Assembly: GCA_003132025.1 (NCBI GenBank)
Contig: PKWJ01000018.1
Location: 83,403 to 147,402 of the forward strand
Origin: Gammaproteobacteria bacterium
GTDB lineage: Bacteria; Pseudomonadota; Gammaproteobacteria; Steroidobacterales; Steroidobacteraceae
Length of the DNA stretch: 64,000 nt
Reading direction: 5' to 3'
Positions 22,944-42,386 of the stretch are shown one piece after another. The notes below the pieces were generated by a model, which did not search any database, had not been told where the DNA came from, and worked only from the letters and a program-made list of their open reading frames with translations. A program made the translations under genes and the position numbers. Every line of letters starts with the position of its first letter. The stretch's first letter is position 1.

Positions 22944-23849
22944 CTAATGCCCCAGGGCGGCGCGCAGCGCCGCCAGCTCCTCGGCCGACTCGCTGACCAT
23001 CGCCTGGCAGATATCGGCATCGAGCCCCAGATGCGCGGCTGCCCTGCGGTTGGTCAGCCGGGTGCGGATCAGTTCCGGGGAATCCTTGCACATCGACAGC
23101 ATGTCGGCGATTTCAAGCACGTCGGCCAGAGCGGCGCTGGAGCCGCGCAGTTCGCGCTCGCTGTCTTCGTAGCTGCTGACAGCGATGACGATGTCGTCGG
23201 CGAGGAACCAGCTCTCGAGCAGCGCTTTGGCGATGTTGCCATGCCAGTCGCGCACGATGCGCTGGTACATGGCCTGGTCGCCGAACAGCGCCGGATGGCG
23301 CATCGAGTGAGTGAGGATATACAGCTTGCCGACGCCGTGCACCAGGCCGGTGAGCATCGCCATGTCGGGACTGATTCTGTTCGACCGACGTGCCACCACG
23401 AAACACAGCGATGCTACCAGCACACTATGCTGCCACAGCACGTTGAGGTGACGCTCAATGCCGGCAAACGCCTTGGCGCGGCGCAGCTGCGCCACCGCGA
23501 AGCCGACCGCGGCCGAGCGCAGCGCGTCGAAGCCCAGGCGGGTGACCGCGGCACGCAGCTCCGTGACCGGCTTGCCGCCCGGATTGAGCGCCGCGGAGTT
23601 CGCCATCGACAGCACCCGCGTCGCCAGCACCGGCTCCGCGCCCAGCACCCGTACCACCCGCTCCGAGCTGGCGCCGTCTTCCGACAGCACCTTCTGCACC
23701 CGCAGCGCGACTTCCGGAAAGCTCGGCAGCTCGATCGTACTTGAGGACAGTTCGGAAGCGAGCTCGCGCACGAATTCGAACGCATCCATGCTTGCATCGC
23801 GCTGCATGGACGGGGTCGACTGTGTATCAGTGTTCTGCGCGGCCGTCAT
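22944..23849 (-). CDS. HDOD domain protein
   Basis: IELPSFPEVALRVQKVLSEDGASSERVVRVLGAEPVLATRVLSMANSAALNPGGKPV. Confidence 0.85.
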   Translation of the reverse strand: MTAAQNTDTQSTPSMQRDASMDAFEFVRELASELSSSTIELPSFPEVALRVQKVLSEDGASSERVVRVLGAEPVLATRVLSMANSAALNPGGKPVTELRAAVTRLGFDALRSAAVGFAVAQLRRAKAFAGIERHLNVLWQHSVLVASLCFVVARRSNRISPDMAMLTGLVHGVGKLYILTHSMRHPALFGDQAMYQRIVRDWHGNIAKALLESWFLADDIVIAVSSYEDSERELRGSSAALADVLEIADMLSMCKDSPELIRTRLTNRRAAAHLGLDADICQAMVSESAEELAALRAALGH

Positions 23850-23873: not shown

Positions 23874-26057
23874 TTAAAACTCGCTCCAGTCGTTGCCGGT
23901 CGCGGCGGCGGCCGTCCTCGATGCGGTGGCAACTGCGGTCGCGGGCTTCGACCACGGGCGCGCGCCGCTGCGTCGATCGGCGCGTGTCGCCGAATCGCTC
24001 CCGCGGCCGGCTGCCGCCGCTGTGGCCGGAGCGCGCGCACTCGGGGCGCCGGCTGCACTCACGGCAACGGGCGCGGCAATGAACTCGGCGTTAGTCGGCA
24101 CCACAGTGTAGCCGTCGCGCAGCTTGAAAAACGCCGTCAGTTGCGATAGCCGTGCGGCCTGATCGTTCATCGATGCCGCCGCGGCACTGGCCTCCTCCAC
24201 CATGGCGGCATTCTGTTGCGTGCTCTCGTCCATCTGCAGCACGGCGCGGCTGATTTCCTCGGCGCTCGCCGCCTGCTCCTGGCTGGCATTCGATATCTCA
24301 CCCACCACGTCGCTGACCTTCTTCACTGAAGCCACGATTTCGCCCAGGTGCTGGCCGGACTCGCTTACCAGCCGGCTGCCCTCGCCGACCTTGCTGACGC
24401 TGTCGTGAATGAGGTCCTTGATCTCTTTGGCCGCCGAGGCACTGCGCTGGGCAAGGCTGCGCACTTCGCTGGCGACGACCGCAAACCCGCGTCCCTGATC
24501 GCCGGCGCGCGCCGCTTCCACCGCGGCGTTGAGCGCCAGCAGGTTGGTCTGGAACGCGATCTCGTCGATGACCGAAATGATATCTGCGATCTTCTTGCTG
24601 GCCACGTTAATGGCGCCCATGGCGCCCACCGCGCGCTCGACGATCAGGCCACCCTGCTCCGCCTGATCGCGTGCCGCCTGGGCAAGCTTGTTGGCCAATC
24701 GGGCGTTGTCAGCATTCTGCTTTACGGTGGAGGTCATCGCCTCCATCGAAGACGCGGTCTCCTCCAGGTTCGCGGCCTGCTGCTCGGTACGAGCCGACAG
24801 GTCCGACGTGCCGGCGTTGATCTGGCGCGCAGCGGTCGCCACGGCCATCGAGCTCTCCTTGACTCCGCTGAGCACGCCACTGAGCTTGCTCTGCATGACC
24901 TGCAGCGCGCGCATGGTGCGCGCTAGTTCGTCGCTGCCTTGCACGGTGATTTCGTTGGTGTAATCGCCCTCCGCCAGACGCGATACCACGCCCACCGCCT
25001 CGTTCATGCCACCCACCGTGGTACCGATGACCACGCTCAGCGCGGCGAGGCCGGCCAGCAGTGCGGCTGCGACCAGCAGCATCATCCGATTGCGCATCGC
25101 CCGCAGCTCATCGGAGATATATTGCACCCGCTTTTGCGCGACCTTTTGCATCGAGGTATGGAAGCTGCTGATCGCCGCGGTCAACTGCGAGGTATTGTTG
25201 ACCACGTCGTCGAGCGGCTCGCTCTTGGCGCCGCCGGCCACGCTCTCCCTGACGTACTTTTTAAACGCCTCGAAATCACTCTGGATCTGCGGCATCGATT
25301 GCTCGGCGGCGCCCCGCACCTCGACGGCGGCCTGCATGGCCGCACCGGCCGCACCGCCTTCCAAGGCATGTCGGATGTCGGCATTAATGCTGTCGAGCGC
25401 GCTCTGCGCCAGGACCTCGGTGCGGGTGAGCTGCTGCAGATCGGCCATCGTCGGCTTGCCGGCCGCGCCGACCGCCGCGGCGCGCGAGCGCATCTCGGTC
25501 AGATACCCCTCATAGTCGGGAATCCGCATGACTGCGGCGTCGATGACGAACGAGGTCACCGCGTCGCCGTCGTGTGCCAGGCCCGAAGTGGTTGCAATGT
25601 AGTCGCGATAGTCGAGAATTTCCTGCCGGAGTGCACTGTGCATGTACTCGACGTCGGCGCTCGATGTGGGCTTGGTTGTGGCGAGTGCGTTCCAGGCCTG
25701 TTTGACGTCGTTCCAGCGCCGCGAGTTTTCCCCCGCCGGCGCGCCATAGTCATCGTTAGCGGCGTCCTGCATATCTATGGCGCGGGTCACTTCGGCGCCG
25801 GCGGCCTGCAGCTTGTCGGGCACGCCCTCGCCGGTCGCCGCCGCGATGCTCCAGATCTCGTGCATGCCCAGGGGCAGCAGCATCGCCTCGAGGTTCTGGG
25901 AGCGGTGCAGGCCCGCCAGCTCGCGCGCGCCGAGGTTGATGTTGTTCTGCTTGTCGGACAGGAAGAGCGCCGTCAGGACGATCACCGGTACCACGGCCGC
26001 GATGGCGATCGCCACCAGCTTGGTGGAGAAGTTCAGGTCGCGGATCCAACGGGTCAT
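23874..26057 (-). CDS. Methyl-accepting chemotaxis protein with C-terminal xWxxF pentapeptide (DWSEF)
   Basis: Two TM segments, HAMP, signalling hairpin [44 protein letters not shown]; ends NDWSEF. Confidence 0.95.
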
Positions 26058-26209: not shown

Positions 26210-27322
26210 TCAGCTTCCGGCTGCAAGTCTCTCTTCCCCTTCGTCCCGGTCGCCGCTGGGTCCTACCAGCCCCTGGGCGATCTGCTCGATCGGCAGGATC
26301 CGGTCGACCGCACCCAGCGCCACCGCGGCGCCAGGCATGCCCCAGACCACGCTGCTCTTCTCGTCCTGCGCGATGGTGAGCGCGCCCTTATCGCGCATGT
26401 CCTTCAACCCGCGGGCGCCGTCTGCCCCCATGCCGGTGAGGATGACTCCGACTGCGTTCTGGCCCACCTGCTCGGCCACCGAACGGAACAGCACGTCGAC
26501 ACTGGGGCGGTGGCGGTTGACCGGTGCATGGTCGCGCAGGCGGCAGCGATAACGCGCGCCATCGCGTTCGACCGCCAGATGCAGGTCCCCGGGAGCGATA
26601 TAGGCCTGCCCCGGAAGGATCAGCACCCCGTCCCGCGCCTCCTGCACGCTCAGCCGCGAGCAGGCGTTCAGTCGCGCCGCGAACGGTGCGCTGAAGGCGC
26701 GCGGAATATGCTGGGTAATCACGATGCCCGGAGCATCCGGCGGCAGCCGGGCCAGTACCTGGCGGATGGCTTCGGTACCCCCGGTCGACGCGCCGATCGC
26801 GACGATCTGATCGGTGGTGCGAAAGTGCAGCTCCGGGCGCGGTTTTTGCGCGGCGCCGGCCTGATTCGCCGGCGGCGGCCGCGGAACCAGCGGCCGCACC
26901 CGCGCCACGGCGGCGACTTTGACCTTGCTGATCAATTCGGCGGCATACGCCTCGAGTGCATGAGCAACATCGACTTTCGGCTTGGTTACAAAATCGATCG
27001 CGCCAAGCTCCAGCGCGGCCAGCGTGACGTCGGCGCCGCGCTCGGTCAGCGAGGAGCACATGACCACCGGCATTGGCCGCAGCCGCATCAGGTTGCGCAG
27101 GAACTGCAACCCGTCCATGCGCGGCATTTCCACGTCGAGCGTCAGCACATCCGGATTGAGCAGCTTGATCTTCTCGCGCGCTATGAAGGCATCGGGCGCC
27201 GTGCCGACGACCTGCAGCGCCGGGTCGGCCCCGAGAATCTTGGTCAGCAGCGCGCGCACCAGTGCCGAATCGTCGATGATCAGCACCTTGATACGCTTGT
27301 CTGAATCAGATTGCGATTCCAT
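26210..27322 (-). CDS. cheB: Chemotaxis protein-glutamate methylesterase CheB
   Basis: REC ([30 protein letters not shown]) and methylesterase domain ([26 protein letters not shown]). Confidence 0.95.
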
Positions 27323-27349: not shown

Positions 27350-28024
27350 TCAGAACAGCTCGATGTCGCCGCCAACCGGGGTGCTATCGATAGCGCGCTT
27401 GTAGCGCGTCTCATCGGCGACCACGCGGCCGTCGCTGCGTGCCAGCCGCTTGACCTGAGCGCTGCCGCTCGCCGGGTCGTACAGCACCTTGCGCGGGTAG
27501 AGGTCGCCGAGATCCTCACCCACCACCGTGAAACCCTCGGCCTGTACGTATTCCTTCACGAAACGGATGTTGCGGGCACCGACATCGCTCAACGAATCCA
27601 GCACCTTGCCGCCGCCGACCAGCTTCACCTCGAGATCAGCCCGCCGGCCGCCCAGCTTGAGTATCTCGTTGATCAGCCGTTCCATGGCGACGTTGCCGAA
27701 GCGCGTGGCGGCGCTGGCGGTACTGCCCCAGGCGCCGCTACCGTCCGAGTGATCCACCGGCAGCATGAAATGATTCATGCCGCCGATGCGCAGGCGGCTG
27801 TCGCGAATGCAGGCCGACACGCACGAGCCCAGAATGGTGCCGATCAGCTCGCCGGTGGCGGCGACGTAGTAGTCGCCCGGATGCAGCGTGGCAACCACGG
27901 CATCGACGCGGGCATCGAAACGCCGCTGTATGTGACTGAACTGCCTCGGTGCCGGTGCCGGCGCAGTCGATGGCGAGGGCGATGGTGATGGTGATGGTGA
28001 CGGCGGAGGTGGTGGCGAGTTCAT
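27350..28024 (-). CDS. cheD: Chemoreceptor glutamine deamidase CheD
   Basis: LGSCVSACIRDSRLRIGGMNHFMLP; ends PVGGDIELF; (SP)n-rich N-terminus. Confidence 0.93.
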   Translation of the reverse strand: MNSPPPPPSPSPSPSPSPSTAPAPAPRQFSHIQRRFDARVDAVVATLHPGDYYVAATGELIGTILGSCVSACIRDSRLRIGGMNHFMLPVDHSDGSGAWGSTASAATRFGNVAMERLINEILKLGGRRADLEVKLVGGGKVLDSLSDVGARNIRFVKEYVQAEGFTVVGEDLGDLYPRKVLYDPASGSAQVKRLARSDGRVVADETRYKRAIDSTPVGGDIELF

Positions 28025-28893
28025 CCGGCCAGCCTGCGGTGTATGGTGTCGCCCACCAGTTGATACTGCGAGCTGACCTGCAGCAGCGATTCGGAATGAC
28101 CGAGGATCAGATGATCGTCGGAGCGCTGCAGAACCGCCATGCGACCGACGATCCTGCGCTGTATTTCACGGTCGAAATAGATCACGACATTGCGGCAGAA
28201 GATCACATCGATCGGCCCCTTCATCGGCCAGTCATCCATCAGATTCAGGGTTTTGAAGCTGATCAGTTGCCGCAGCTCGTCGCGCACCGTGTAGTGCTGC
28301 TGGTCCTGCGCCGGTTCGAACCAGCGCAGCAACCGACGGCTGTCCAGCTTCTCGAGCCGTTCGCCGCTGTACAGCCCGCAGCGCGCGTGGCTCAGTACGT
28401 TGGTATCGATATCGGTCGCCAGTATGCGGATATCCCAGCCGCGCAGATGGCGCACATTCTCCAGCAGCACCATCGCGATCGAGTACGGCTCCTCTCCGGT
28501 CGAGCATCCCGCCGACCAGAAACGCATGCGCCGCGACCTGCTATTGTTGCGCTCCAGCGCCGGCAACAACTGCTCGGCCAGGAAATCGAAATGATGGCTT
28601 TCGCGGAAAAACGACGTCAGGTGGGTGGTGATGGCGTTGCAGAAGTGCTGCAGTTCGCCGGCATCGTCGGCTTCGACGTGCTGCAGGTAGCTGCCAAAAT
28701 CACGCAGTTTGAGCGCGCGCAGGCGGCGGCTCAGGCGGCCATAGACCAGCTCGCGCTTGGATTCCGCGAGCGAGATTCCGAGCCGTTCGCGTACCAGTCG
28801 CCGGATGCGTTGGAAGTCGTCGTCGGATAGGTCGTATTCGCGAAGCAGCGCGGTATCAGCGGCTGCGGCCGTGGCAAAGTTGTCTCCGGCCAT
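28021..28893 (-). CDS. cheR: Chemotaxis protein methyltransferase CheR
   Basis: TSFFRESHHFDFL, WSAGCSTGEEPYSIAM, FCRNVVIYFD. Confidence 0.95.
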   Translation of the reverse strand: MAGDNFATAAAADTALLREYDLSDDDFQRIRRLVRERLGISLAESKRELVYGRLSRRLRALKLRDFGSYLQHVEADDAGELQHFCNAITTHLTSFFRESHHFDFLAEQLLPALERNNSRSRRMRFWSAGCSTGEEPYSIAMVLLENVRHLRGWDIRILATDIDTNVLSHARCGLYSGERLEKLDSRRLLRWFEPAQDQQHYTVRDELRQLISFKTLNLMDDWPMKGPIDVIFCRNVVIYFDREIQRRIVGRMAVLQRSDDHLILGHSESLLQVSSQYQLVGDTIHRRLAG

Positions 28894-28904: not shown

Positions 28905-29492
28905 TCAGAATACTTCGAGTTCACCGGGCGCCGCCGCCGCCCGCAGACCGGTCAGGGCCTTTAGCATCTGATCGGCGCTCAGGCCGCGCATCATGAAGTC
29001 GAACAGCACGCGCTCTTCGACCATGCTGTAGCGGGAGCGTACCTGCTCCAGCATGGAGTTCCAGTCGGATCGAGCCGGATCCAGGGCGGTGACCGTGGAA
29101 TCGGAAGGTATCGCCAAACCGTCGCGCACATGGGTCAGACGCTGAATGAGCTTGTCGTAGAACTGCAGCGAGGTAACTGTAGCCTGCACGTCGGTGTCGA
29201 GCTGCGCCGCCAGCTGCTTGATGCGCTCACGCGCCCGCTGCACCTCCGCAAGATCGGCGGATTCCAGCGCCTGCACCTGCATCTCCAGTTCGCGCGCGTC
29301 GGTGGCCACCGCGGTCACCGCGCCGGCGAGTTTGTCGACCCGCGAATCGCTCTCGCGCATGGCGGCGTCGAGTTGCGCCGCCCCCAGCTCCAGAAATCGT
29401 CGCAGTTCGCCGGCAAATTTGACGTTGGCGCTGGCCTCGGAATTCTCCGGCGGCACGGCCGCAGCGCTCGCCGGGTTTTCCCCCGCGCTCAT
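28905..29492 (-). CDS. Coiled-coil-rich protein of unknown function in the che operon, with CheZ-like DxxxQ motif (DKLIQ)
   Basis: 195-aa ORF, starts overlapping the STAS gene stop; helical; VTSLQFYDKLIQRLTHVRDGL; C-terminus GELEVF. Confidence 0.8.
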   Translation of the reverse strand: MSAGENPASAAAVPPENSEASANVKFAGELRRFLELGAAQLDAAMRESDSRVDKLAGAVTAVATDARELEMQVQALESADLAEVQRARERIKQLAAQLDTDVQATVTSLQFYDKLIQRLTHVRDGLAIPSDSTVTALDPARSDWNSMLEQVRSRYSMVEERVLFDFMMRGLSADQMLKALTGLRAAAAPGELEVF

Positions 29493-29938
29493 GGCAGTAT
29501 CTCCGCCGTGGCGGCCAGGTGATCTGCCAGGCCGAGTGCGCTGGCGGCACCGCTGTTCAGGCTTCCGGCGCCGTGCAGCCTCAGCGTCAGGCCACGGCGC
29601 CGCGCCGCAGCCGCCGCCGCCAGCAGTAACTGCAATCCGGCGGTGTCGATGCTCTCGAGCTTGCCGGCATCGACCTCGGCGGAACCCGCGGCGATCAGGG
29701 CCTGGAATTGCACCGCACGTTCGCCAACCTCACGGATCGACAGGGACGAACCCAGTGCCATCCGGGCGGCGCCGTCGGCGCTCGCCGCACCGCTAGCGGC
29801 TGCAGCACACTCGACCGTATTCGTCGCAGCCACAGGAGCGTTGATCCGCGGCGGCGCCGGTGCGCGCGCTGCAGACTTGATCGCCGCGCGAGCGCCAGCG
29901 GCGACCTTCTTCTTTTTTTGCGCCATATATCTGCCCAT
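29489..29938 (-). CDS. STAS domain protein (anti-anti-sigma-like)
   Basis: AGSAEVDAGKLESIDTAGLQLLLAAAAAARRRGLTLRLHGAG; Ala/Lys-rich N-terminus; start may be internal (MAQKKKK). Confidence 0.8.
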   Translation of the reverse strand: MGRYMAQKKKKVAAGARAAIKSAARAPAPPRINAPVAATNTVECAAAASGAASADGAARMALGSSLSIREVGERAVQFQALIAAGSAEVDAGKLESIDTAGLQLLLAAAAAARRRGLTLRLHGAGSLNSGAASALGLADHLAATAEILP

Positions 29939-30442
29939 TTAGGCCGCTTTCGGCGCCGTCGCCGACTCGATCAGAGTGCGTGAAACCAGCTGCACCACAT
30001 CCAGCAGCACCAGCATACCGTCGCCTACCATCGCCAGGCCGCGCACCAGGTCGGAGTCGATCGCGGAGCCTACTGCCGGCGGCGGCCGCAAATCCTCGGC
30101 ACTGATGTTGCAGACCTCGCACACGGCATCGACCACGATGCCCGCGGTCAACTCGCCGTGATCGGTGCCAACCTTGACCACGATCACCACCGTGGTGCGC
30201 CCGTACTGAGTCTCCCCCAATCCGAATCGGCGCCGCAGGTCCAGGATCGGCACCACGGCACCACGCAGGTTGATCACTCCCTGCACGTGCTCAGGCGAAT
30301 GCGGCAGCCGCGTGGGCTTTTCCCAGCCCTTGATTTCCTGTACCCGGAGTATCTCAACGCCGTAGGTCTGGCCCGCAAGCTGGAACGTCAGGTACTGATC
30401 GGAATCGGTGACGATGCTCGGCTTTGCGGCGGTGACATCCAT
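29939..30442 (-). CDS. cheW: Chemotaxis coupling protein CheW
   Basis: YLTFQLAGQTYGVEILRVQEIKGWEKPTRLPHSPEHVQGVINLRGAVVPILDLRRRFG. Confidence 0.95.
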   Translation of the reverse strand: MDVTAAKPSIVTDSDQYLTFQLAGQTYGVEILRVQEIKGWEKPTRLPHSPEHVQGVINLRGAVVPILDLRRRFGLGETQYGRTTVVIVVKVGTDHGELTAGIVVDAVCEVCNISAEDLRPPPAVGSAIDSDLVRGLAMVGDGMLVLLDVVQLVSRTLIESATAPKAA

Positions 30443-30453
30443 CAGCGTTGCCC

Positions 30454-30840
30454 TCAGCTGCGTACGGCTGTCTGGTTGCCGAGCACGCGCTCGAGCGTCG
30501 CCAGCAACTGGTCGGGATTGAACGGCTTCACCATCCAGCCGGTGGCACCCGCCTGTTTGCCCTGAATCTTACGGTCTGGGCTCGACTCGGTGGTCAGCAG
30601 CAGCAACGGGGTCAGGTGGTAGTTCGGCAGCGTCCGCAATTGCGCAATCAAAGTGATGCCGTCCATGCGCGGCATATTGACGTCGGTAAGTACCAGATCG
30701 ACCCGGTGCTTGCGCGCGTATTCCAGTGCTTCATCGCCGTCGGAGGCCTCTATCACTTCGTAGCCCGCCGCCCGCAGTGTCACACCGACCATCTGCCGCA
30801 TCGAAGCCGAATCATCGACCGCGAGAATTGTCTTAGACAT
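30454..30840 (-). CDS. CheY-like single-domain response regulator (second of two)
   Basis: MSKTILAVDDSASMRQMVGVTLRAAGYEVIEASDGDEAL...VLTDVNMPRMDG...MVKPFNPDQLL. Confidence 0.92.
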   Translation of the reverse strand: MSKTILAVDDSASMRQMVGVTLRAAGYEVIEASDGDEALEYARKHRVDLVLTDVNMPRMDGITLIAQLRTLPNYHLTPLLLLTTESSPDRKIQGKQAGATGWMVKPFNPDQLLATLERVLGNQTAVRS

Positions 30841-31020: not shown

Positions 31021-33114
31021 TCACGCCGCCAGGGACTCGGACACGGAACGGGTCAGGCCCGCAATGTCGAGAATCAGGGCAACCGAGCCATCGCCGAGGA
31101 TGGTCGCGCCGGCAATGCCATCGACGTGTCCGTAGTTCGCCTCCAGCGTCTTGACCACCACCTGCTGCTGACCGAGCAGCTCATCGACACACAGGCCGAC
31201 GCGCCTGCCATCGCCTTCCACCACCATGATCAGGCCGTCTTCAGGGTCGCGCGTGCCCTGGGAGCGGGCTGCGAACACCTTCTGCAGCCGTACCACCGGC
31301 AGGTATTCGCCGCGAAACGACAGTACTTCGCCGTGACCGACCACCTGTTTGACCGAAGCCGTACTCAGCTGCAGCGATTCCACGATCGCAGTAAGCGGCA
31401 CAATGTATGACTCGTCACCAACCGCCACCGTCTGGCCGTCAACGATCGCCAGCGTCAGCGGCAAGGTAATGATGAAGCGTGACCCTATGCCGGCCTCGGA
31501 CCGAACTTCGATGGTGCCGCCGAGTTCGTCAACATTGCGTTTGACCACATCCATGCCGACGCCGCGACCCGAGATATCCGTGGCCTGGTCGTGGGTCGAA
31601 AAGCCCGCCAGGAAGATCAGATTATTGACCGCCTCGTCCGACAACTGATCGTCGGTGCTGATCAGCCCGCGCTCGCGCGCCTTGGCGAGGATGCGCTCGC
31701 GCTTCAGGCCGCCGCCATCATCGCCGACTTCCACGGTAATACTGCTGCCGCGGTGATAGGCGTGCAGATGCACCGTGCCATGGGCGGCCTTGCCGCTCGC
31801 CTGGCGCTGTTCCTGCGATTCGATGCCGTGATCGATGCTGTTACGCACCAGATGCACCAACGGATCGCCGATCTTCTCCAGCACGGTCTTGTCGAGTTCG
31901 GTCTCCCCGCCGGTTATCTTGAGCTCGACCTTCTTGCCCAGACGCTGGCTGAGGTCGCGCACCATGCGCGGAAAGCGGCTGAAGACAAAGCTGATCGGCA
32001 CCATGCGCACGCGCATGACGCTCTCCTGCAGCTCGCGCACGTTGCGCTCGAGCTGCGCCAGCCCGGTGCGCAGCCGCTCGCCCACGGCGCCATCGAGCAA
32101 CGATCCGAACTGCCCGAGCATCGATTGCGTGATCACCAGCTCACCGACGCTGTTCATGAGGTCATCGATCTTCTCGACACTGACGCGGATCGAGCTGGCG
32201 TCGCTGCTCCTGGCGACATCGGCGACCTTGGCCGGCCGGTGCTCGTTATCCTCGGAATGCGGAGTTACTGGCGGCGCTTCGGATGAGACCGGGCGAGCGG
32301 CCGCCGGGGAGGTCGGCACGCATGTTGGTACGTTCCTGGCAACCGTGCCTGGCTCGGATTCGAGCACCTTGACTGCGAGCTCGCAGTCGCCTTCGGCCCA
32401 GTCAAATACTTCCACGATCGACTGGCGCGGTGCATCGGTACGCAGCCTCAGCTGCCACGACAGGTAGCAGTTCTCGGGATCGAACTCCTCGATTGGAGGC
32501 AGCGCCGAGACATCGGCCGTGACCTGCAGGTCGCCCAGCTCGCGCAGTTCGCGGAACATGCGCAGCGGATCGTTGCCACGTGCCAGCAGGTGCAGGTATG
32601 GCCGGAAGCTGATCTTATAGAGCGTACCACGCGCCGCTTCGCCACCGGCCGCCGCGGCACTGGTCGCCGCCGCGGCCACGGGCGCGGCCGCCGGTGCGGC
32701 TGCGGCCGCTGCCGGCGCTCTGCCCTTTTGCACCACCGCGAGCTCCAGGTCGAACTGCAGATCGGCAACACGCTGCGCGTCCACCGGCTGCTTGCCCTGT
32801 TGAGCCCGCAGCATCTCGCGCATCACGTCGACCGAGCGCAGCAACAGATCCGACAGCGCAGCGCTGACCTTCAGGCGCTGGCCGCGCAACTCGTCGAGCA
32901 AGGTTTCAAGCGTATGGGTGAAGGAGGTGATCTGGGCAAAGCCGAAAGTCGCCGCGCCACCCTTGATCGAGTGCGCGACGCGGAAGATGGTATTGATCAG
33001 CTCGAGATCAGGCGTCCCGACATCCAGGCGCAGCAGCGACTCCTCCATCTGCCCAATCGCCTCGAAGCTCTCTTCATAGAACGCATCGTGAAATTGTGTC
33101 AGATCGATCGTCAT
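31021..33114 (-). CDS. cheA: Chemotaxis histidine kinase CheA
   Basis: Hpt HSIKGGAATFGF; dimer/ATPase LVHLVRNSIDHGIE, GRGVGMDVVKRNV; C-terminal CheW-like domain. Confidence 0.97.
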   Translation of the reverse strand: MTIDLTQFHDAFYEESFEAIGQMEESLLRLDVGTPDLELINTIFRVAHSIKGGAATFGFAQITSFTHTLETLLDELRGQRLKVSAALSDLLLRSVDVMREMLRAQQGKQPVDAQRVADLQFDLELAVVQKGRAPAAAAAAPAAAPVAAAATSAAAAGGEAARGTLYKISFRPYLHLLARGNDPLRMFRELRELGDLQVTADVSALPPIEEFDPENCYLSWQLRLRTDAPRQSIVEVFDWAEGDCELAVKVLESEPGTVARNVPTCVPTSPAAARPVSSEAPPVTPHSEDNEHRPAKVADVARSSDASSIRVSVEKIDDLMNSVGELVITQSMLGQFGSLLDGAVGERLRTGLAQLERNVRELQESVMRVRMVPISFVFSRFPRMVRDLSQRLGKKVELKITGGETELDKTVLEKIGDPLVHLVRNSIDHGIESQEQRQASGKAAHGTVHLHAYHRGSSITVEVGDDGGGLKRERILAKARERGLISTDDQLSDEAVNNLIFLAGFSTHDQATDISGRGVGMDVVKRNVDELGGTIEVRSEAGIGSRFIITLPLTLAIVDGQTVAVGDESYIVPLTAIVESLQLSTASVKQVVGHGEVLSFRGEYLPVVRLQKVFAARSQGTRDPEDGLIMVVEGDGRRVGLCVDELLGQQQVVVKTLEANYGHVDGIAGATILGDGSVALILDIAGLTRSVSESLAA

Positions 33115-33117
33115 TGG

Positions 33118-33837
33118 CTACATACCCAGATCCGACAGCAGGGCGTCGACATCCTGCTGGCCGCTGACGGCGTGTCCGTGGTTGATGCCCGGCACTGCCG
33201 GACCATGGCCGCGAGCCACGCCGGCTTCAGCGGAGCAACCGGTGGCGGCGCCAACCGGGCCGGCGATGCGCACCAGTTCTCCCAGTGCCTCCTCCAGCTC
33301 AGCTACCAGCGTCATGACACTGCGAATGATCTGGCCGCTCAAATCCTGGTAGCCCTGCGCCAGCAGCACCTCGGCCAGATTGCTGCGCACCGCCGCCATG
33401 CTGGTGCCGGCCTGCTTCAGGAATGCCAGGAGCTGGGGCTTGAGCGTTGGCGCCGAGCCCTCGGCATCGTAGGCAAGGATCAGCTGCTCGGCCTGCTCGG
33501 CCAGCTGATCGGCCAGCGGACAGCACCGTTCGACCAGGTCCATAGTTCGGTGTGCGGCGTCGTCAGTCAGCCGCAGTACATGCGCCAGCCGATGGCGCGC
33601 ATCCGGCACCTGGTGCTGGGCCAGATCAATCAGTTTGGATTCGATGCGAAAGCGCTCGAGCGCCCCGTGCAGGTCGATGGCAATCCGGCGCACCTGCTGC
33701 GTGACCTCGGCGTTGCGCGATTGGTCAAAGGCGGCCAGCGCGGTGCGAAAGCCGTCGCCGTCCCCGTCGTCCAGTGCACGCGACATGGCGGTGACCCACG
33801 GGGCGTACAGATCGAACTCCTGGGCTGGCGTAGTCAT
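33118..33837 (-). CDS. cheZ: Protein phosphatase CheZ
   Basis: AQGYQDLSGQIIRSVMTLVAELEEAL contains canonical DxxxQ; C-terminal DVDALLSDLGM resembles the CheY-binding tail. Confidence 0.92.
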   Translation of the reverse strand: MTTPAQEFDLYAPWVTAMSRALDDGDGDGFRTALAAFDQSRNAEVTQQVRRIAIDLHGALERFRIESKLIDLAQHQVPDARHRLAHVLRLTDDAAHRTMDLVERCCPLADQLAEQAEQLILAYDAEGSAPTLKPQLLAFLKQAGTSMAAVRSNLAEVLLAQGYQDLSGQIIRSVMTLVAELEEALGELVRIAGPVGAATGCSAEAGVARGHGPAVPGINHGHAVSGQQDVDALLSDLGM

Positions 33838-33843
33838 CAGTAT

Positions 33844-34239
33844 TCACGCCGCGGCGCGAGCCGCCAGGATCTTGTCGATCTTTTCCTTCAGCGTCGCCGC
33901 TGTAAACGGCTTGATGACGTAACCACTGACGCCGGCCTGCGCCGCTTCCACGATCTGTTCGCGCTTGGCTTCGGCGGTGAGCATCAGCACTGGCAATTTG
34001 GCCAGGCGCGCGTCGGCGCGCACCTGCTTGAGCAGCTCCAGGCCCGGCATTCCGGGCATGTTCCAGTCGGTGATCAGGAAATCGAAGTTGCCATCCTTGA
34101 GCAGCGGTAGCGCGGTTTTGCCGTCATCGGCTTCGGTGACGTTGGCGTAGCCCAGATCGTGCAGCAGGTTCTTGATGATCCGGCGCATCGTCGAGAAATC
34201 GTCGACCACGAGAAAATTCAAGTTCGGCTGCACTCGCAT
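33844..34239 (-). CDS. cheY: Chemotaxis response regulator CheY
   Basis: [37 protein letters not shown]...[17 protein letters not shown]...[15 protein letters not shown]. Confidence 0.96.
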
Positions 34240-40877: not shown

Positions 40878-42386
40878 GTGGCCAGAAGCAACGTCAGCGC
40901 ACTGCTGAAGCATTTCGAATTGCCGCCGGGCGAGCCCGGTGGCGCGGTTGAGTGCCTGGAAAGCTTCAATCCCGGCGACGGCAGCCTGCTCGGCCGCGTG
41001 CCCACCACCGGCGCCACCGGCTATGACGAGGTGATGAACCAGGCAGTTGCGGCTGCGCGCAGCTGGGCCGACGTGCCCGCCCCGCAGCGCGGGGATCTGG
41101 TACGCCAGATCGGTGATGAGCTGCGGCGCCACAAACGCGAGCTCGGCGAACTGGTGTCGCTCGAAAACGGCAAGATCATCGCCGAGGGCCTGGGCGAGGT
41201 GCAAGAGATGATCGACATGGCCGATCTTGCCATCGGCCAGTCGCGCATGCTCTACGGTCACACCATGCACTCGGAGCGCAGTCAGCACCGCATGTACGAG
41301 CAGTGGCATCCGCTGGGCGTGGTCGGTGTCATCACCGCATTCAACTTTCCAGTCGCGGTGTGGTCGTGGAACGCATTGCTGGCGGCGGTGTGCGGCAACG
41401 CCACGGTATGGAAGCCCTCGCCTAAAACCCCGTTGTGCGCGCTGGCGGTTCAGCGCCTGTGTGACCAGGTCCTGAAACGCCATGCGGCGCCGGCGATTTT
41501 TCAGCTGCTGATCGACAGCGGCACTGAACTTGGGGCGCGCCTGGCCGCTGACCGGCGCGTCAACCTGTTGTCGTTCACCGGCTCCACCGCGGTCGGCCGC
41601 CAGATCGCGCAGACCGTGGCGGCGCGCCTGGGCCGCAGCCTGCTCGAGCTGGGCGGAAACAACGCCATCATCGTCGATGAGAGCGCCGACCTCGCGTTGG
41701 CCGCGCGCGCCATCGTATTCGGTGCGCTTGGCACCACCGGACAGCGATGCACCAGCACGCGTCGCGTGCTGGTGCATCGATCGCAGCTGCCCGAACTGCA
41801 GCGCCGGCTGATCCACGCCTACCGCCAGCTGCGCATCGGCGATCCACTCGACCCCACGACACTGGTCGGACCATTGATCGATCTCAATGCGGTGCGCAGT
41901 TTCGAGCGCGCCATCGGCACAGCCCAGGCCGCCGGCGGCACGCTGCTGGTCGGCGGCAAGGTGCTGGCGCGACCGGGTCACTTTGTCGAACCGGCGATCG
42001 TGCTGGCACGCAACGACTGGGACATCGTGCAACACGAGACCTTCGGGCCGATCCTGTACCTGATACCGGTGGCTTCAATCGACGAGGCGATACGGCAGCA
42101 GAATGAGTCGGCCTACGGCTTGTCCTCGAGTCTATTCACCCAGCGACTGCAGCACGCCGAGCTCTATCTGAGTCACCAGGGCAGCGACTGCGGCATCGCT
42201 AACGTCAACATCGGCACCTCCGGGGCCGAGATCGGCGGTGCTTTCGGCGGCGAGAAAGACACCGGCGGCGGCCGCGAGGCCGGCTCCGATGCCTGGAAGG
42301 CCTACATGCGCCGGCAGACCAATACCGTCAACTGGAGCTCGGCGCTGCCGCTGGCGCAGGGCATCGAATTCGATCTTGCGCCGTGA
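40878..42386 (+). CDS. Aldehyde dehydrogenase, ALDH7/AmaB-like (alpha-aminoadipate semialdehyde dehydrogenase candidate)
   Basis: [103 protein letters not shown]. Confidence 0.93.

Follow-up and report, generated by a model that had tools for sequence, protein, structure and literature searches.

The chemotaxis operon and its unassigned gene

A chemotaxis operon in the window, by which we mean the whole 64,000-nucleotide stretch of DNA analyzed here, encodes two CheY-like proteins and a bona fide CheZ, and raises the question of what is done by a 195-residue protein, here called X, whose gene lies between those for a STAS-domain protein and CheR. In order of transcription, on the minus strand, the genes are cheY1 (33844-34239), cheZ (33118-33837), cheA (31021-33114), cheY2 (30454-30840), cheW (29939-30442), the STAS gene (29489-29938), X (28905-29492), cheR (28021-28893), cheD (27350-28024), cheB (26210-27322), an MCP gene whose product ends in NDWSEF (23874-26057), and an HDOD gene (22944-23849). 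A Pfam scan backs CheZ (PF04344, E 8.7e-45, with a match to 1KMI at 1.9e-13), both receivers (Response_reg), STAS (PF13466, 3.2e-11), CheR (PF01739) and HDOD (PF08668, 1.8e-31). The other operon names were assigned by eye from sequence, with operon position also considered for CheW. The two CheY-like proteins noted in the sequence-only reading are single-domain proteins, and CheZ does carry the YQDLSGQII segment that had been ascribed to it.

X is a real open reading frame at the coordinates first proposed, where no strand was given; it runs on the minus strand from an ATG at 29492 to 28905, its start overlapping the stop of the STAS gene. Its translated sequence contains VTSLQFYDKLIQRLTHVRDGL. 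The DxxxQ motif within S-L-Q-F-Y-D-K-L-I-Q occupies 29142-29156, and by codon count D113 is at 29154-29156 and Q117 at 29142-29144, in agreement with the original placement. A bare DxxxQ occurs in 56% of shuffled X sequences, which is near chance and uninformative. The longer CheZ-type pattern [AS]xx[FY]xDxxxQ occurs in only 0.9% of shuffles and is informative. X has another DxxxQ (D99/Q103, 29184-29198), which is not conserved, column 103 being H, Q or R in homologues.

Extent and conservation of the family

In Pfam and NCBIfam, nothing matched X above cut-off; no other family claims it in these scans. CheZ was not matched by X in the Pfam scan at E values up to 1, and was absent among the families shown when 73 X homologues were compared with Pfam at 0.01. 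Of 118 relatives, 28 contain a homologue. In the class, 54 genomes out of 274 do so, a figure that also takes in MCP-length frames. From named genomes, a further scan yielded 553 confirmed relatives, the best 80 of which are mostly beta- and gammaproteobacterial. Judged from these searches, X is a member of a widespread, unnamed protein family.

Because the scan that gave the 553 relatives used the motif as its search pattern, conservation was measured instead on homologues found by profile, for which the motif was not required. Among these, the Asp is kept in 58 of 58 and the Gln in 57 of 58, and the lack of conservation in orthologues that had been named beforehand as grounds for abandoning the phosphatase proposal was not seen. 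Q110, D113, Q117 and H121 are invariant in the 73-sequence alignment, and a wider invariant set comprises Q40, L55, F111, R118, H121, W144 and F195. Ala or Ser five residues before the Asp and Phe two residues before it are almost constant. The position after this Phe, which is Gln in the CheZ-type context, is Tyr or His in X.

Predicted structure

An AlphaFold2 model of X (pLDDT 82) is a helical hairpin, with a first long helix predicted for residues 16-78 (29259-29447) and a second for residues 81-135 (29088-29252). The DxxxQ motif lies on the second helix of the two-helix hairpin, as it does in CheZ. The invariant Q110, D113, Q117 and H121 form a polar stripe on this helix, as judged by sequence periodicity and not from model coordinates; the solvent exposure expected of D113 and Q117 agrees with their placement on the polar face by the same analysis. 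A Foldseek search of X against the PDB returned generic helical hairpins only, with nothing at E 0.001, and phmmer and hmmsearch against the PDB returned just coiled-coil and designed-protein noise.

An AlphaFold2 model of CheZ built for comparison from four sequences was of low confidence (pLDDT 57) and was used loosely. In X, the Asp is about 33 residues past the hairpin turn, a distance that we compared with tip and turn positions in CheZ, taking the counterpart of the Asp in E. coli CheZ to be D143. The tip of E. coli CheZ is near residue 100, and the Azorhizobium CheZ has its turn near 140, with D165 (PMC7750401).

Relationship to CheZ

Direct hhalign comparison of X with CheZ was not significant, scoring under the shuffled controls, also when more diverse CheZs were used. 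The X profile also picks up the tails of MCPs of about 400 residues, which have LQF(Q/E)DxxxQ, mostly with Gln or Glu after the Phe, and an aromatic C-terminus. In hhalign these tails match X with an E value of 4.8e-18 (score 109, shuffle maximum 44) and CheZ with an E value of 1.1e-6 (score 45, shuffle maximum 25), with DxxxQ in register in each case. Both alignments thus exceed shuffled controls, and the comparison with X exceeds reversed controls as well. The Pfam CheZ model itself matches six of the eight short MCPs scanned, at E values of 4e-5 to 7e-4, below its cut-off. Because the tails match both proteins, X and CheZ are probably distant homologues linked through this intermediate. The suggestion that X might belong to a novel or remote family fits what was found: no direct match to CheZ, yet a significant link by way of the short MCPs.

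Both X and CheZ (PF04344; E. coli 1KMI) have a helical hairpin with A-x-x-F-x-D-x-x-x-Q on its second helix, a linker, a C-terminal peptide, and a gene beside a CheY. X differs in being without direct sequence significance and below detection by the Pfam model, in its association with another CheY clade, and in its C-terminus, which is of the IELF type where CheZ has DVDDLLxxLGF; the C-terminal CheY-binding sequence of CheZ, DVDxLLxxLG, is missing from X. The short-MCP tails, including that of the receptor encoded after cheB in F7-like clusters, share with X the DxxxQ segment and a hydrophobic C-terminus ending in Phe, but they are joined to an MCP signalling domain, whereas X is free-standing. 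No paper on CheZ-like tails of chemoreceptors turned up in the literature library searched. A search of six genomes with a DNA pattern for FQDxxxQ was too loose, and its match in the window (near 41457) is in an open reading frame antisense to a long dehydrogenase-like one. In a Nitrosomonadales contig (L085, 6668-7282), a divergent CheZ is directly upstream of X.

Association with CheY2

The receiver proposed as the substrate of X is CheY2, which by eye has the usual receiver residues (VDD, TDVNMP, TT and KPF). In the window, cheW and the STAS gene separate cheY2 from X. A single-domain CheY2-type gene is 9-67 nt from X in nine relatives, and for four of these (G041, G056, G071 and G030) the search showed no other che gene up to about 8 kb away from the pair; in L274 and L275 the pair is within a che cluster. 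In a phylogenetic tree of CheYs, those beside CheZ split from those of X-bearing che loci, with the exception of a few divergent receivers (L051, L079, L103 and others). The window has one CheY of each kind, CheY1 in the clade of CheZ-paired CheYs and CheY2 in the X-associated clade. In two related genomes (G026 and G045), X and genes of the FliM/FliN type are present but CheZ gave no match. For most X genes outside the family of the window, the nearest 1.2 kb contain no receiver gene. The gene pairs and the tree lend weight to the earlier idea of a second CheY/phosphatase pair. In one genome (G018, locus L273), cheY2 is flanked by two X-like open reading frames in a single cluster downstream of a cheY1-cheZ pair.

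The C-terminal tail

X ends in GELEVF-COOH (28908-28925), and the family consensus is (D/E)IELF-COOH. CheD of the window ends in GGDIELF (tail at 27353-27370), and the CheDs of loci L030-L094 end in GDIELF or near variants, a tail that also occurs in the X family and in many short MCPs. A tail common to these three kinds of protein suggests a shared docking partner, and in X it is probably a docking peptide.

Proposed function and alternatives

The explanation that we favor, and consider probable, is that X dephosphorylates a CheY-type receiver, CheY2 in this operon, as a distant CheZ-like phosphatase acting through D113 and Q117 on its hairpin. X might instead be a non-catalytic receiver-binding protein, such as a phosphate sink, localization factor or adaptor, whose contact with CheY2 or array components would be through this surface and would leave the phosphate unhydrolyzed. 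The invariant set reaches well beyond the Asp and Gln and the tail is conserved as strongly as the motif; binding is therefore clearly under selection. However, the residues most constant across the standalone proteins and the short-MCP tails are the very Asp and Gln of CheZ catalysis, while their neighbors vary, and we regard a purely binding role as unlikely. Quite unlikely, in our view, is that X is a true phosphatase of some other receiver (CheB, an NtrC-type regulator or another REC protein), its linkage to cheY2 being a matter of the operon only. In three loci outside che operons (L042, L081 and L084) X follows a gene for a PilR-like NtrC-type regulator, and in Dechloromonas hankyongensis (L091, 8555-8929), also outside che operons, X precedes an open reading frame with an Hpt-like HSAKG motif, but the close cheY2-X pairs recur, including those in the four genomes where they stand apart from other che genes.

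That X is itself an Hpt-like phosphotransfer protein using H121 is very improbable. This residue does not vary in the alignment of 73 sequences, and it lies on the polar face, but it is missing from several homologues and many MCP tails that keep the Asp and Gln, and X has neither an HxxKG motif nor a Pfam Hpt match. The CheC/CheX/FliY and Rap phosphatases put an amide side chain into the receiver active site (PMC3035606), as is proposed for X. Unlike them, X is modeled as all-helical, without strands or a TPR array, and it has DxxxQ in place of the CheC/CheX motif.

A CheZ-like phosphatase of this kind could work as follows. The long hairpin, probably dimerizing to a four-helix bundle, would display D113 and Q117 on its second helix. 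Following the model of CheZ, for which the phosphatase mechanism of Q147 and an acidic partner has been described (PMC3035606), Q117 would enter the receiver active site and orient a water to attack the aspartyl phosphate, and D113 would pair with the conserved lysine of the receiver. X would act on CheY2 and CheZ on CheY1, with the (D/E)IELF tail probably serving as a docking peptide. We infer catalysis, dimerization, choice of substrate and tail function alike; X is probably the off-switch of the second CheY of the operon.

Implications for F7 systems

According to a published survey (Ortega et al. 2020, PMC7184735), the early F7 systems of stages 1 and 2 have CheY, cheZ occurs in F6 systems only, and the C-terminus of McpA-like receptors is conserved, its role being described as important but not clear. 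Some X loci (L056 and L058) have the order cheY2-cheA-cheW-MCP-cheW-STAS-X-cheR-cheD-cheB-MCP, which resembles the stage 1 F7 order of PMC7184735, the likeness to F7 being one of gene order alone. The receptors after cheB in L056, L058 and L062 have RSLQFEDIV(R/G)Q and end in VE(L/F)F, the same module as X. MCPs of 405-506 residues in the F7-like clusters L056, L058, L062 and L078 have the DxxxQ segment and a tail ending in (L/F/M)F like that of X.

For the phosphatase missing from F7 systems, both the X family and the F7-like receptor tails are candidates. More tentatively, we suggest that a large undescribed CheZ-like branch, free-standing or carried in short-chemoreceptor tails, may supply the F7-class CheY phosphatase, its (D/E)IELF tail, common to CheD, docking on a common partner. 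The family hints at a phosphatase module on short chemoreceptors, and it offers one testable answer to both F7 puzzles, the absence of CheZ and the role of the McpA-like C-terminus.
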